Virus record (IMG/VR): IMGVR_UViG_3300009418_000128
Coordinates: 1-22,770 of that record
Reading direction: 5' to 3' (one strand)
Length of the DNA: 22,770 nt
From: a virus
The notes beneath the pieces were generated by a model that did no database searches, was not told where the DNA came from, and saw only the letters and a program-made list of their open reading frames with translations. Every line of letters starts with the position of its first letter. Positions within the stretch are counted from its first letter, which is position 1. Made by a program: the position numbers and the translations under genes. Shown piece by piece: positions 13,771 through 22,770 of the stretch.

Positions 13771-15033
13771 TTAACCCATCCACGAAACTTGCGGCATTTC
13801 TTTGTACGGCTTGCGTTTATTGGGCCGCGTCATAATTGAAAACAATTCTGTGAACGCCCACACCAGCGCATCAACCCGGTCTGGTGAGCCATCACCTTCA
13901 AAGCCCGCTGCCGTCATCTGGCATTGCTGGCTTTCCAGTTCCGGGAACGTGCCGACATGTGAAACGCGGCCCAGTGAATAAAGCGCGCTAATCGGCTCGG
14001 CCCTAACGTGCTTACCTCGAGTAGCCCGGACCTCGGTAATCGGAAGACCGGGCCGAATAGATTGCAACGTATGGCGCACCATGTCGCCGCCCTGATTAAC
14101 CTCGATTACGACTGAATCGGCCTCGTGCTTGTCATACGCTGCAATTGCTTTTGACGCCCATTGGTGCGGCGTGCCATGACAGGAGAAATCCTCCAGCACA
14201 TAACCCCGCCGGTCTTCACCAACGCCAGCAACGATGATGCCGGTTTCATTTGGGTCTTTCCCGGTTTCCGCCGTTGTCACCGCCGGATCAACGGCAACCA
14301 CTATGCGCTTTAATTCCGGTGCCTCACTGCGCCGGTTTTCGTGCAGCGTCTGACGGTCAAAAATTGCACCAGTTAAAGATGGCTCGTATTCGCCTAGCCA
14401 AATATGGCTGTATCGATCCGGCGCATTCTTGTGATCAAACACCCGCTCCTGCTCCAGAACGTCAGGGAAAAACGGGTTCTTGTCATAATTGACTTTCTGA
14501 ATTATCGCGTTCTCTGGCGTTACCTCACCGCGAAACATCTGGTCTACCGGATCAGATGAATGGCGCGGGTTCCAGCTAAACCAGATTTCTGAATCAGGCT
14601 CACGGATTGTTGGGCGCAATATCTCTAATGAGCGCGCGCTGATGGTCTGCGCCTCTTCAATCCAGCAACGATTAACGCCAGCCATCGATTTCAACTGATC
14701 CGCCGTTATCTTTCCCAGGCCGGAGAAAATGAACAGCGTGCCGTTCTTCCCGCGTATTTCATTTTGGATTGATTCATAAAAGCTGCCCAAGTTCATGGCG
14801 GCAATCTTGTCATCAAGCAATTGCTTGACGGAATCCTTGATCGAGTTCTGGACCTCGCGCGCGCACAAAATACGCAATGGTTCCTTACCACCGGCAATCA
14901 ACAGGGATGTTGCAAAGCTGTGGCTTTTGGCGCTCCCGCGCCCGCCGTAAAACGCCTTGTATCTGGATGGCTTGAAAAGCCCGGCAAACGCCTCGGGCAA
15001 ATCAACCTTAGTCCGGTTTGATGAGGTTGACAT
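13771..15033 (-). CDS. terL: Terminase large subunit
   Basis: This 420-residue packaging motor starts at ATG 15033, overlapping the small-subunit gene by 26 bases. A GTG start at 15066 would add 11 unlikely residues. The ATPase domain shows Walker A GGRGSAKS at 30-37, Walker B CWIEE at 123-127 and coupling motif FSWNP at 152-156. The nuclease domain follows with VAVDPAV (Asp249), VVIEVNQGG (Glu311) and SPDRVDALVWA (Asp385 and Asp388), the acidic residues expected for the RNase-H-like metal site. This is the Terminase_3/PBSX-like arrangement, used with headful (pac) packaging in several phages. It works with the small subunit and portal. All key motifs appear intact. Confidence 0.95.
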   Translation of the reverse strand: MSTSSNRTKVDLPEAFAGLFKPSRYKAFYGGRGSAKSHSFATSLLIAGGKEPLRILCAREVQNSIKDSVKQLLDDKIAAMNLGSFYESIQNEIRGKNGTLFIFSGLGKITADQLKSMAGVNRCWIEEAQTISARSLEILRPTIREPDSEIWFSWNPRHSSDPVDQMFRGEVTPENAIIQKVNYDKNPFFPDVLEQERVFDHKNAPDRYSHIWLGEYEPSLTGAIFDRQTLHENRRSEAPELKRIVVAVDPAVTTAETGKDPNETGIIVAGVGEDRRGYVLEDFSCHGTPHQWASKAIAAYDKHEADSVVIEVNQGGDMVRHTLQSIRPGLPITEVRATRGKHVRAEPISALYSLGRVSHVGTFPELESQQCQMTAAGFEGDGSPDRVDALVWAFTELFSIMTRPNKRKPYKEMPQVSWMG

Positions 15034-15334
15034 CAAACATGAATGCAAGCGGGCTGTCTGGGTCACCCATGATCATCTGCACAGCTTTACCATCTGTACG
15101 ATCGAAGACTTCCTTAATGGCCTGGATATCACCATCTGATGCTTTGATCGCAAGTTGATTTGCAATAACATTCAGCCGCTTGGTTGGCTTACCGTCACCG
15201 TCTTTGATTGAATCAACTTCCCGGTTCAGCGCCATCATCAGCGCATCGGTCATTGTGGTCCTGCGCCCGTTACGCTTCCCGGCATGGACAGGGTCTCCAC
15301 GTTTTGGATCATAACCCTTTGAAAATTCACCCAT
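15008..15334 (-). CDS. terS: Probable terminase small subunit (DUF5681-like)
   Basis: This is 108 residues from ATG 15334. A TTG start at 15370 would place the first codons inside the terminator, so it was not used. The N-terminus is Gly/Lys/Arg-rich (KGYDPKRGDPVHAGKRNGRR). The core, with IANQLAIKASDGDIQAIKEV and FDRTDGKAVQ, resembles the DUF5681 pattern (ala..A..GD..AIKEI.DR.DGK) found directly upstream of phage large terminases. Its place before terL also fits. It would recognise the packaging site on phage DNA. The overlap with terL suggests coupled translation. Confidence 0.72.
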   Translation of the reverse strand: MGEFSKGYDPKRGDPVHAGKRNGRRTTMTDALMMALNREVDSIKDGDGKPTKRLNVIANQLAIKASDGDIQAIKEVFDRTDGKAVQMIMGDPDSPLAFMFDVNLIKPD

Positions 15335-19463: not shown

Positions 19464-20066
19464 CTAGACGAACTCGTCTTCAAGCTCGCCAATAGCGTCG
19501 GACGCGGTATTTGTAACCGGCGCGGGTGCCGGGGTTGAATTGCCGCCGCTCAATATCGGCAAATCGTCCTCGGATGGGCGCTTCACCCATTTGGTTATTT
19601 CCAACTTGGGTGCGTAGTTGGTGCCGTTTTTGCCGGTGATGGATGTGACGCCCGTGCATTTGACTACCGGCAGTTGGCCGTCCCCGGCTTTCCCGGATTC
19701 TTCATATTCGGCATAGATGGCTTTGATGGCGTTGGTGAAGGCGTTGGCGTTAGCCATAAGGCTTCGCACCCCATCCAACTGCTTTTTCGCATATACATGG
19801 ACTTTAAAACCCCGCTTGCAATCTTCGTGGGGCCTTTCGGCGGTGGTGGAAATATCATCGTCCGGCGTCCAGTACGGGGCGTTGTCTTTGAACATCAGCC
19901 AGCCGGTTTGGATGTTATCAAAGTCGACAATGGCCTGGAAATTTTCAACCTCTTTGTCACCGTCGTCGGTTTTCTTGTACCAGCGCCCGACCTGCGCGTT
20001 GAATTTCACATAAGGTAGCCAATCACCGCTATCTGTAGAATCTTCGTCATATCCGATATTGAGCAT
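19464..20066 (-). CDS. Probable single-stranded DNA-binding protein
   Basis: This 200-residue protein has a GGAGA site before ATG 20066. The N-terminal two thirds contain LPYVKFNAQVGRWYKK, QAIVDFDNIQTGWLMF and EDCKRGFKVHVYAKK, a beta-rich pattern I associate with phage proteins beside PD-(D/E)XK nucleases. The C-terminus is a Pro/Ala/Thr linker followed by the acidic tip AIGELEDEFV, like the acidic tails with which SSB and T7 gp2.5 recruit partners. Its position between a nuclease and a primase-helicase fits a DNA-coating role in replication and recombination. I cannot show an OB fold from sequence alone, so a recombination-annealing protein is a possible alternative. Confidence 0.6.
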   Translation of the reverse strand: MLNIGYDEDSTDSGDWLPYVKFNAQVGRWYKKTDDGDKEVENFQAIVDFDNIQTGWLMFKDNAPYWTPDDDISTTAERPHEDCKRGFKVHVYAKKQLDGVRSLMANANAFTNAIKAIYAEYEESGKAGDGQLPVVKCTGVTSITGKNGTNYAPKLEITKWVKRPSEDDLPILSGGNSTPAPAPVTNTASDAIGELEDEFV

Positions 20067-20132
20067 TTTCGTTTCTCCGTTACAAGTTCAGCCCTTTAAT
20101 TTTACATCCGGGGCCGTTATGGGATGTTTTGG

Positions 20133-20876
20133 CTAGTACCCAAAAACCTTCCGGCCTTGCTCGCGCGTGGCCGGGCTATTCCAATAAAATGAATCGTAGT
20201 TCGGGATCACAAAAGATCGCAGAACTTCAGGATCATCTGAAAGCGATAAAAACCGCTCGACGCGGATGGCCGTCTGGCGCACCTCTTCAAGGTCTTGTGT
20301 GCAATCTTCCAATTCATAGAAGCCCACCTTTTTGGGCGTCACATAGAGGAACTTCATGGCGTGGTTGCCCTTCGCCTTCTTGTATATAGCGCCCTGGCGC
20401 CGATCCGGCGCGGTGATGCAAGACGGCAAGCGCATGGTGGATTTTAGGTCGATTACCTCGCCCTTAGAATCCCAAGTGAAATCCGTATAACCCATGATTG
20501 GAAGCTGAACGCCGTCCAGTTTTATTTCGATGCGTTCTTGGGTTTGGGACGGCGGGCCGTAGTCCTTGAGGGCCTCCAACCCTTGTTCCACCATGGCCGG
20601 GATGTTGGCGCGCTCTTTATCGCGGGCCTCACCGTCAACGCCGAGCGCCGTAAGTTCATTAAACTTCTTTACCGCTTCCTCGGAGGGGTCCACAAATTCG
20701 TTACCCTGGAGGCCGACCTCAACCCCGAATTCAGTGGCGGTGCCGCGCGCCATTGCGGCGTTGGTCCCCTCACGGAATCGCGGCGGCAGATATACCATGC
20801 ACCAAAGTGCCATATCATTGATGGCTTTTTTAAGCGAACTATTGCTGTGGTGGTCTATATCGTGAAACCTTTTCAT
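20133..20876 (-). CDS. PD-(D/E)XK nuclease, Cas4/RecB-type exonuclease
   Basis: This 247-residue protein overlaps the resolvase gene by ATGA. Family motifs are in order: RGTATEFGVEVG near 44-55 (usual RGT..H, here Glu50 in place of His), GYTDF with Asp132, VIDLKST with Asp143 and Lys145, and QGAIYKK (Gln161, Tyr165), matching the QxxxY signature of Cas4/RecB/AddB-type nucleases. No iron-sulphur cysteine cluster is visible (Cys26, Cys153 and Cys192 are isolated). It probably resects DNA ends for phage recombination together with the SSB-like protein encoded next. Confidence 0.78.
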   Translation of the reverse strand: MKRFHDIDHHSNSSLKKAINDMALWCMVYLPPRFREGTNAAMARGTATEFGVEVGLQGNEFVDPSEEAVKKFNELTALGVDGEARDKERANIPAMVEQGLEALKDYGPPSQTQERIEIKLDGVQLPIMGYTDFTWDSKGEVIDLKSTMRLPSCITAPDRRQGAIYKKAKGNHAMKFLYVTPKKVGFYELEDCTQDLEEVRQTAIRVERFLSLSDDPEVLRSFVIPNYDSFYWNSPATREQGRKVFGY

Positions 20877-21307
20877 TGCTCACTACCCCACAACGCAATC
20901 AGCGCCGCTTCGGCGCGGCCATCATCTTTCACCCGCTTGAAAAAATGGCCGAACTTTGGAAACAGCCGCGTGGCCGTGGCGCGTGATGCGGCCTTATCCC
21001 GGCCCAGACTGAAATGCTTCTTCCAGCGGGCCGGGCTGACCGGCGTCCAGGGGATTTCCAACGCCGCCATTACGCCTTTTATGACGCCAACGCCTTGGCC
21101 AAAATTGAAGGCCGATTGACGGCCCATTCCGTGGGAGTTGACGGACTCTATATATGCGTGATCCGGGGTGAATTCATCGAACAGGTCCGCAATGGCCTTG
21201 GCATTCAATTCCCGGTCGATCACCGGCATATCGTGGATATCCAAAAATCCACATGGATATAGCAGCGCGATGGCGCCCGTCTTGCCGGGATCGATGGCGG
21301 CGATCAT
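20873..21307 (-). CDS. RuvC-like Holliday junction resolvase
   Basis: This is 144 residues from ATG 21307. A longer frame up to 21376 exists but the family opens with M-I-A-A-I-D-P-G, and this ATG is coupled to the stop of the 28-residue gene (TAATG). Catalytic acidic residues appear as Asp6 in AIDPGKTGA, Glu54 in AYIESV, and Asp128/Asp129 with Glu133 in KDDGRAEAALIALWG, the usual RNase-H-fold order. The middle MGRQSAFNFGQGVGVIKGV agrees with phage RuvC relatives. It should resolve branched DNA produced by recombination or replication before packaging. The length is near the 150-170 residues usual for the family. Confidence 0.85.
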   Translation of the reverse strand: MIAAIDPGKTGAIALLYPCGFLDIHDMPVIDRELNAKAIADLFDEFTPDHAYIESVNSHGMGRQSAFNFGQGVGVIKGVMAALEIPWTPVSPARWKKHFSLGRDKAASRATATRLFPKFGHFFKRVKDDGRAEAALIALWGSEQ

Positions 21308-21393
21308 TAAAATACTTTCGCGGAAACATAAACGAGCGCGGTCGCCGCTGTGCATACCGCAAAAATCACGGCCCAATCTTGGGCGCGGATCAC
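21307..21393 (-). CDS. 28-residue membrane microprotein
   Basis: A GTG at 21393 opens MIRAQDWAVIFAVCTAATAL plus VYVSAKVF and ends in TAA. A GGGGAG site (21402-21407) lies eight bases before the GTG. The start overlaps the stop of the upstream gene (GTGA) and the stop overlaps the resolvase start (TAATG), so the frame bridges two genes exactly. Residues about 7-24 are hydrophobic, enough for one membrane span. Function unknown. The resolvase start has no obvious binding site of its own, so translation of this frame may be needed for it. Confidence 0.55.
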   Translation of the reverse strand: MIRAQDWAVIFAVCTAATALVYVSAKVF

Positions 21394-21608
21394 AGCATCA
21401 TCTCCCCAGCGTCTATCCGGGCGAGCGGGTCTTTGAGCGGGTCTTTGTATGTTTCCGCGTCTAGCTTGGCGATTGCGGCATCAACCTTGGAAGCCGTGAC
21501 ATCACATTTACATTTCGCCGGTCGGCGCAACCTTTGCGGCAAGATGCCTGTAGCTAGCTGTCGAACAAGGCTTCGAGATATGAGTTGGTCAAGCTGTTCA
21601 TCGGTCAT
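21390..21608 (-). CDS. 72-residue hypothetical protein of the early operon
   Basis: ATG 21608 overlaps the stop of the cro-like gene (ATGA), with GAGGA eight bases upstream. The N-terminus MTDEQLDQLISRSLVRQLAT is helical. The middle has RLRRPAKCKCD, with two cysteines only, and the rest is Asp/Lys-rich. No family recognised. Its place directly behind cro suggests an early regulatory or host-takeover role, but this is inference. Confidence 0.6.
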   Translation of the reverse strand: MTDEQLDQLISRSLVRQLATGILPQRLRRPAKCKCDVTASKVDAAIAKLDAETYKDPLKDPLARIDAGEMML

Positions 21609-21802
21609 AATGAAGATTCCTCAAAAAAATCATTCGGGGTCACCGCGCCTTTTGACCATTGGGCTATTTTATTCATTTGAGCAGGGCGGGGGATGCGGTT
21701 CCTGTTAACCCAGTGGCGCATAGTTTGATCGCCACAGCCGAAATCCCTTGCGGCTTCGGCCACGGTCATTTGTTGTTTGGAAATGTATTTTGAAATAAGC
21801 AT
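21605..21802 (-). CDS. Cro-like helix-turn-helix regulator
   Basis: This is 65 residues from ATG 21802; a second ATG nine bases upstream (21811) would make 68. The upstream ATG overlaps the predicted -10 box, and the transcription start predicted from that box falls on the A of 21802, so a leaderless start is preferred. The helix-turn-helix is ISKQQMTVAEAARDFGCGDQ followed by TMRHWVNRNRIPRP, the form of YdaS/Cro-type proteins that turn W-x-x-x-x-x-I-P. It lies first in the early operon and downstream of the repressor gene. It probably binds the same operators as CI and blocks repressor synthesis or sets the early programme. Confidence 0.75.
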   Translation of the reverse strand: MLISKYISKQQMTVAEAARDFGCGDQTMRHWVNRNRIPRPAQMNKIAQWSKGAVTPNDFFEESSL

Positions 21803-21808
21803 GGCTGA

Positions 21809-21837
21809 CATCTAAACCGTTTTGGTTTAAGTGTCAA
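21809..21837 (-). promoter_or_regulatory. Predicted early promoter in front of cro
   Basis: On the minus strand a consensus -35 TTGACA (21837-21832), a 17-base spacer and TAGATG (21814-21809) form a promoter. The -10 is weak by the E. coli standard (three of six). The two operators described separately cover the -35 upstream edge and the spacer, so bound repressor should block it. This would drive the leftward early operon. Confidence 0.6.
21813..21829. promoter_or_regulatory. Operator site, TAAACC-N5-GGTTTA
   Basis: A 6-bp dyad with a 5-base centre (GTTTT) sits between the -35 and -10 of the early promoter. Its centre is 21 bp from that of the next site. It shares the AACC-N5-GGTT core with sites at 21836-21848 and 22579-22591 and is the longest-armed of the set. 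Confidence 0.7.
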
Positions 21838-21848
21838 CCATTTTGGTT
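21836..21848. promoter_or_regulatory. Operator site, AACC-N5-GGTT, at the -35 of the early promoter
   Basis: AACCATTTTGGTT overlaps the TTGACA hexamer by two bases. It is the exact reverse complement of the site at 22579-22591. Repressor or Cro binding here would occlude polymerase. Confidence 0.72.
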
Positions 21849-21855
21849 AAATTAC

Positions 21856-22530
21856 TTATTCTTTTTTATAGGAACCAACCACAATGGCTGTGATTTCAAT
21901 ATCATTGTTGCCGTCATCTCCGGGCTTAAACGGAATTGGCTTATGATCTGGATTGGTGCTAGCGGGAACCAAACTGCCTTGGCCGTAATCGTCAACAATA
22001 AATTCTTTTACCGTGGCTTCGATCATTCCTTGTTTGTCCTGGCGTTGGACAACCACCCTCTTGCCAATCGGCGGTAGTTCCGCTGTTGGATCGAATGGGC
22101 GGCAAATCAATATAACATTTGCAGGATATATTTTATTCATAGAGTCCCCGCGCACTTCCAAGCCAATTAAATGCGGATATCTATCATCATATATATTTAC
22201 TGAATATTGGTCAGAAAGCGGCCATTCCAAGGCTTCACGCCATTCCCCGGCCTGGACTGCGCCGATTACAATTATATGCCGCCGTTCGCTGTCTATTGGT
22301 TTGGCGGCATCACTGGTCACGTCAGATATATCTTTTTCGTCAAAAAGTAATTCAATCGCGGCTCGTCCCAGATGCGGGGCGAGCCTTGCGGCCCATTCCG
22401 CTGTTAATTTTCTATCCGCACGTTCCAGCCTTCCTATTTGTTGGCCGGATGTATTTGCCAACCCTGCAAGTGTTGTTTGGGATAGCCCCGCATCTTCACG
22501 AAATTGTTTCAGTCGGTTCATAACCTTCAT
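21856..22530 (-). CDS. CI-like repressor (HTH plus S24/LexA peptidase domain)
   Basis: This is 224 residues from ATG 22530; the ATG at 22521 (MNRLKQF) is equally plausible. Residues 4-65 are an HTH_3 domain (GLSQTTLAGLANTSGQQIGR is the recognition region). The C-terminal domain is S24 peptidase-like: cleavage site Ala94-Gly95 in AVQAGEW, catalytic Ser130 in VRGDSM and catalytic Lys175 in ATVKEF. RecA-stimulated self-cleavage would therefore be expected to trigger induction. It lies upstream of and in the same direction as cro, unlike lambda. Operators of the same family lie on both sides of the gene, so it probably controls leftward and rightward early transcription and its own. Confidence 0.92.
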   Translation of the reverse strand: MKVMNRLKQFREDAGLSQTTLAGLANTSGQQIGRLERADRKLTAEWAARLAPHLGRAAIELLFDEKDISDVTSDAAKPIDSERRHIIVIGAVQAGEWREALEWPLSDQYSVNIYDDRYPHLIGLEVRGDSMNKIYPANVILICRPFDPTAELPPIGKRVVVQRQDKQGMIEATVKEFIVDDYGQGSLVPASTNPDHKPIPFKPGDDGNNDIEITAIVVGSYKKE

Positions 22531-22557
22531 TTAATAACAAATATTTTAAAAGACAAC

Positions 22558-22570
22558 AAACAATTTGGTT
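22558..22570. promoter_or_regulatory. Degenerate operator half-match at the rightward -35
   Basis: AAACAATTTGGTT keeps the right GGTT arm and has mismatches in the left arm and the centre. Its centre is 21 bp from the perfect site at 22579-22591, the same spacing as in the cro promoter. This may be a weaker repressor site. Confidence 0.45.
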
Positions 22571-22597
22571 GACGATATAACCAAAATGGTTTAGTTC
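22569..22597 (+). promoter_or_regulatory. Predicted rightward promoter
   Basis: TTGACG at 22569-22574, 17 bases, then TAGTTC at 22592-22597 copies the plan of the cro promoter (TTGACA, 17, TAGATG) with an operator in the same place of the spacer. The -10 is weak. It would drive the gene that starts at 22626. Confidence 0.5.
22579..22591. promoter_or_regulatory. Operator site, AACC-N5-GGTT, in the rightward promoter
   Basis: AACCAAAATGGTT is the exact reverse complement of the operator at 21836-21848. It fills the spacer of the rightward promoter. A shorter look-alike, AACCAAATGG, occurs at 22608-22617 in front of the ribosome binding site. Confidence 0.7.
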
Positions 22598-22625
22598 TTT
22601 CCACCTCAACCAAATGGAGGGCACC

Positions 22626-22770
22626 ATGCCATTTTATTCCGAAGCCGACCACTCCGCCGCTTGTGAGGCGCTGGCATCAATCAAGGCCATCCAAGGCCAT
22701 CTGAATTGCATTCGCGAGCTACAGGTTGCCGCTGACACTTGCAGCGAAATCTTCAGAACCATCGCAGAGC
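22626..22770 (+). CDS. Rightward early gene, N-terminal part, function unknown
   Basis: This is the only convincing plus-strand gene. ATG 22626 has a GGAGG site five bases upstream (22616-22620). The 48 residues in the window begin MPFYSEADHSAACEALASIK and continue as one predicted amphipathic helix with two cysteines. The frame is open to the right edge. Transcription probably starts at the operator-controlled promoter at 22569-22597, so it belongs to the rightward (PL-like) early operon and should be silent in a lysogen. I do not recognise the family. Confidence 0.65.
   Translation, partial: MPFYSEADHSAACEALASIKAIQGHLNCIRELQVAADTCSEIFRTIAE

Follow-up and report, generated by a model that had tools for sequence, protein, structure and literature searches.

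Textbook lysogeny switches have a divergent cI-cro pair, and the locus described here raises the question of how such a switch is organised, and whether it still belongs to a known kind, when cI and cro are read in the same direction. The window analysed is one whole IMG/VR record of 22,770 bases (IMGVR_UViG_3300009418_000128), whose minus strand carries the genes of a terminase, a P22-like portal, a major head protein and replication proteins, the switch being located at its right end. Several samples hold this phage or a close relative, judging from the terminase (13771-15066), which is 100% identical in three short contigs from other metagenomes (L030, L031, L032). These contigs are too short to extend to the switch, the contig of the nearest phage by terminase (96%) and primase (IMGVR_UViG_3300024518_001503) stops short of it, and the close relatives identified through the resolvase (L002-L005) are without a switch near the resolvase gene. 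Direct scans of IMG/VR and of GTDB genomes gave no close relative of the window cI, and the comparison presented below is therefore built on identities of 23-37%.

The repressor gene occupies positions 21856-22530 of the minus strand and starts at ATG 22530 or, according to the alignment with relatives, at ATG 22521. Its product matches PHROG 4 (transcriptional repressor, 4e-25) and the Pfam families HTH_31 (1e-8) and Peptidase_S24 (5e-13), and inspection of the translation and of the alignment revealed an Ala-Gly cleavage motif (VQAGEW), a serine within GDSM and a lysine within VKEF, the corresponding G, S, M and K columns being invariant across the cI alignment. As in lambda-type immunity regions, it combines an XRE-type helix-turn-helix (HTH) with an S24 peptidase and is predicted to cleave itself. 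The recognition helix reads TSGQQIGRLE, and most members of the repressor family come from alphaproteobacterial phages and prophages. The best-scoring candidate for the cI promoter (22529-22556, minus strand; TTGTCT, 16, TTAAAT) is weak and is equalled by several others.

Downstream of cI and on the same strand, the gene at 21605-21802 encodes a 65-residue Cro-like regulator. Pfam detects in it a weak generic HTH only, and PHROG 35 matches at 1e-6; it nonetheless belongs clearly to the Cro family found in related phages, as seen from the alignment, from the family signature GAVTPNDFF at its C-terminus and from a family profile (E 4e-27) whose source alignment includes the protein itself. This gene is the first of the leftward replication operon, in which it is followed by a RuvC-like Holliday junction resolvase gene (20873-21322, minus strand; PHROG 1770, 4e-32) and a primase gene, so that a small Cro regulator heads the lytic replication operon, again as in lambda-type regions. 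Past the resolvase, positions 19464-20876 hold two poorly characterised genes, one matching PHROG 10230 (unknown function) and the other with a weak PHROG match only.

The start of cro is ATG 21802 and not the upstream ATG 21811, since the latter falls within the -10 hexamer of the predicted cro promoter (21809-21837, minus strand), which consists of TTGACA at 21837-21832, a 17-nt spacer and TAGATG at 21814-21809 and was assigned from the sequence and from relatives. The distance from the beginning of TTGA to the cro ATG amounts to 35 nt in the window and to 34-35 nt in the divergent relatives L012, L025, L113, L195 and L212, as well as in L194 provided that its ATG precedes the profile start by 3 nt; in a separate subgroup TTGA is found at 52 nt. 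As the cro start falls about where transcription should begin, the cro transcript of the window subgroup is probably leaderless or near-leaderless. That this distance recurs in distant relatives implies that such a cro mRNA may be a conserved feature.

On the opposite side of cI, a rightward promoter is predicted on the plus strand at 22569-22597, with TTGACG at 22569-22574, a 17-nt spacer and TAGTTC at 22592-22597, ahead of a gene that starts at 22626 (22626-22770, plus strand) behind the ribosome-binding site GGAGGG (22616-22621) and that is cut by the contig end. The original prediction held that these two promoter-like sequences share one plan, and this is indeed what we find. Each has one AACC-N5-GGTT palindrome in its spacer and one at its -35 hexamer: on the cro side, the predicted operators AACCGTTTTGGTT (21815-21827, in the spacer) and AACCATTTTGGTT (21836-21848, overlapping the -35 and lying 7 bp past the cI stop codon), and on the rightward side AACCAAAATGGTT (22579-22591, in the spacer) and AAACAATTTGGTT (22558-22570, overlapping the -35 and beside the likely cI promoter). 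The centres, at 21821/21842 and 22564/22585, are 21 bp apart in both pairs as had been claimed, and three of the four sites match exactly, AAACAATTTGGTT having one mismatch. Two pairs at exactly 21 bp compare with a mean of 0.005 in 200 dinucleotide shuffles; allowing at most one mismatch, the window holds 23 sites against 8.6 expected, a number reached in 0 of 100 shuffles. The modules flank cI and both point outward, one toward cro and the other toward 22626, forming a 37-nt inverted repeat with arms at 21812-21848 and 22558-22594 that are identical at 29 of 37 positions (78% complementary). Predicted operators thus flank cI at both outward promoters, as in the lambda type, at least at the sequence level. 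Both modules have weak -10 hexamers, and neither promoter was called by a simple sigma-70 scan, for which reason their reading as promoters rests on the comparison with relatives.

This comparison provides strong support for AACC-N5-GGTT as an operator sequence. Within the 150 bp before cI of 48 loci, 42 ACC-N5-GGT palindromes were seen, distributed over 23 loci, against 1.3 expected from shuffles, and they are found mainly with TS-x-QQ(I/V)-x-RLE recognition helices, as in the window, while different palindromes accompany other helices, for example TAGCG-N5-CGCTA in L026. Because of this enrichment and of its association with a window-like helix, AACC-N5-GGTT is very probably the CI operator of the window phage. 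The letters around the core vary (AACC, ACACC, ATACC, GTCACC), and across the 48 cI-cro loci these outer letters track the repressor subgroup, a possible basis for the prediction of immunity groups. The spacing of sites varies as well, from 20 to 35 bp across the family, which rules out 21-bp phasing as a family rule; the earlier argument that 21 bp would place two dimers on the same DNA face is accordingly weak in general and may apply only locally. In a large subgroup (L016, L121, L124, L127, L134, L182, L198) the gap between cI and cro has operators at a distance of 60 bp, unlike the 21-bp pairs of the window.

That the duplicated modules are the new element of this switch is a view that does not survive the comparison, as matched modules flank cI also in relatives with a divergent cro. 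L194 (IMGVR_UViG_3300036823_000389), which turned up in a search of IMG/VR with the module pattern, repeats on either side of cI the operator-TTGAC-operator plan of the window with the same AACC-N5-GGTT half-sites, at spacings of 21 and 20 bp, and differs from the window in that its cro is divergent from cI. Site pairs 31 and 31 bp apart lie on either side of cI in L013, and L025, L026 and L028 likewise have sites on both sides. L028 is Rhizobium phage RHph_Y25, and it and L025, both with a gene annotated 'repressor protein C', are 35-36% identical to the window in their repressors and carry operators of the ACC-N5-GGT type on both sides of cI, some of those in L028 reading GCC-N5-GGT; here too cro is divergent, and in the window it is in tandem. 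The arrangement is in fact the OL/OR plan of lambda. The lambda immunity region runs OL-PL, rexB-rexA-cI, OR-PR-cro, with the repressor between two outward promoters that have multiple sites. Lambda and the window share a repressor of the S24, self-cleaving type that is transcribed toward one of the two outward promoters; they differ in the number of operators per module, three in lambda and two in the window, and in the position of cro, which in lambda is divergent from cI on its upstream side and in the window lies downstream and in line with cI, the divergent gene being the one at 22626. Among alphaproteobacterial phages, Rhizobium phage 16-3 offers a similar control region, with two promoters, PL and PR, both under the C repressor (PMC3694467), a likeness that concerns the layout.

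The unusual feature of the window switch is instead its gene order. A scan with the Cro protein yielded 16 viral loci and a scan with the Cro alignment 80, on partly shared contigs, 26 loci came from genomes, and gene order was classed with profiles for both cI and Cro. Both genes are present in 81 loci, 78 of them divergent and 3 tandem; after dereplication at 85% cro identity, 46 of 48 loci are divergent and only two, the window and L186, are tandem. A search of 385 genomes, from the class of one Methylobacterium match, added, by our count, 10 further distinct loci, in all of which the two genes are divergent. Even L022, which has a cI 35% identical over 223 residues together with cro and primase, and L050, which shares cI, cro, terminase and portal with the window, have a cI pointing opposite to that of the window. 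The prediction of a same-direction pair, with cro downstream of cI on the minus strand, is thus confirmed, and the order is rare; the divergent cI-cro pair around a common operator that is characteristic of the lambda type is not found here. Since the geometry of the cro promoter is the conserved one, and cro, this promoter and the replication genes are arranged in the customary way, it appears to be cI, rather than cro, that is flipped between its two operators. For the same reason the gene at 22626, previously regarded as the divergent partner of cI, is indeed on the plus strand there but is better read as the beginning of a far-side, OL-like operon; as a candidate Cro it was rejected for having no HTH, and it has no relatives that we could find. 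Many loci (L131, L147, L150, L153, L157, L165, L184 and similar ones) have a Cro homologue in divergent orientation to genes for replication or an exonuclease, and no cI could be detected close by, which looks as though Cro had been retained as an orphan regulator in virulent relatives.

The other tandem case is represented by L186 and L191, near-identical contigs from separate samples in which cI is followed by small ORFs and then by cro on the same strand. As in the window, sites are found before cI and after its stop, the pattern TTACG-N3-CGTAA occurring, in part imperfectly, at 1933 and 2016 (cI start region) and at 2675 (9 nt past the stop), although this pattern was picked after inspection and is suggestive only. 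The repressor HTH and the operator differ from those of the window, and small ORFs separate cI from cro, so that L186/L191 looks like an independent case, unrelated to the window, which indicates that the tandem order arose more than once. Searches of the open literature turned up no account of a switch with cI and cro in tandem, which is weak evidence, as subscription papers fell mostly outside the search.

We consider it likely, from these sequence comparisons, that the window contains the immunity region of a temperate tailed phage in which CI is encoded between two outward two-operator promoters, with cI flipped relative to cro. The same genes could be read with nothing flipped if the true Cro were encoded in the unseen part of the rightward operon and the 21605 gene were a second regulator, in the position of cII or N. 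Regulators in a far-side operon are normal in temperate phages, and the rightward operon is lost at the contig edge after 48 codons, the contig stopping 240 nt past the cI start; yet the divergent cro genes of 46 relatives encode direct homologues of the 21605 protein, down to GAVTPNDFF and the distance from -35 to ATG, and the first rightward gene has neither an HTH nor a PHROG or Pfam match, all of which makes this reading unlikely.

Considerably less probable is an assembly error that misorients cI in a phage with an ordinary divergent pair. The switch does lie less than 1 kb from the contig end and between inverted repeats, and no second contig of the same species across the switch was found for an independent comparison, but exact inverted repeats in the window reach 14 bp at most, which is below the usual assembly words, and the tandem order recurs in the unrelated L186/L191, on near-identical contigs from separate samples. 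We would also give very little credence to the view that CI binds elsewhere, the modules being no more than ordinary promoters to which only Cro, or else some other regulator of the phage, would bind: the CI sites are predicted ones, and CI and Cro of one phage often share sites, but the operator sequence in this family follows the recognition helix of the repressor, as judged from the association of ACC-N5-GGT with TS-x-QQ(I/V)-x-RLE and from the different palindrome of L026.

Returning to a cI turned around between two outward promoters, which is the reading that we favour, in the lysogen CI dimers at both modules would silence two operons, the leftward one with cro and the replication genes and the rightward one from 22626. 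Upon DNA damage, CI would cleave itself via its S24 peptidase domain and both operons would be switched on, and Cro, whose mRNA is probably near-leaderless, would take over once CI is cleaved. No terminator-like site was found between cI and cro, and given that the cI stop is 7 bp from the first operator, cI transcripts would be expected to run into the CI-bound cro operators, where CI would act at the same time as repressor and as roadblock to cI transcripts. If this roadblock were leaky, transcripts begun at cI would contribute to the expression of cro, and the switch would have a negative feedback that divergent switches lack. The most likely origin of the flip is a recombination event, or an exchange of modules, at the two operator modules. 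These flank cI as inverted repeats, and the tandem order would result if they recombined with each other or if the piece between them were exchanged, with both outward promoters left intact. It is most improbable that the cI segment is an invertible element, flipped by recombination between the inverted modules in a fraction of the phages; if it were, read-through into cro would be turned on and off with the outward promoters intact, which would amount to a heritable bias between lysis and lysogeny.

The flipped cI thus makes this switch a rare variant within a known kind, and not a new kind of system. A repressor that is turned around while both operator sets and the geometry of the cro promoter are kept suggests that divergence is not required, and the flipped switch gives a way to test the purpose of the cI-cro divergence. 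It also carries a prediction of its own, namely that the repressor itself must block repressor transcription at the cro operators. Across the family, the pairing of repressor helix with operator may be useful to predict immunity groups in uncultured phages.
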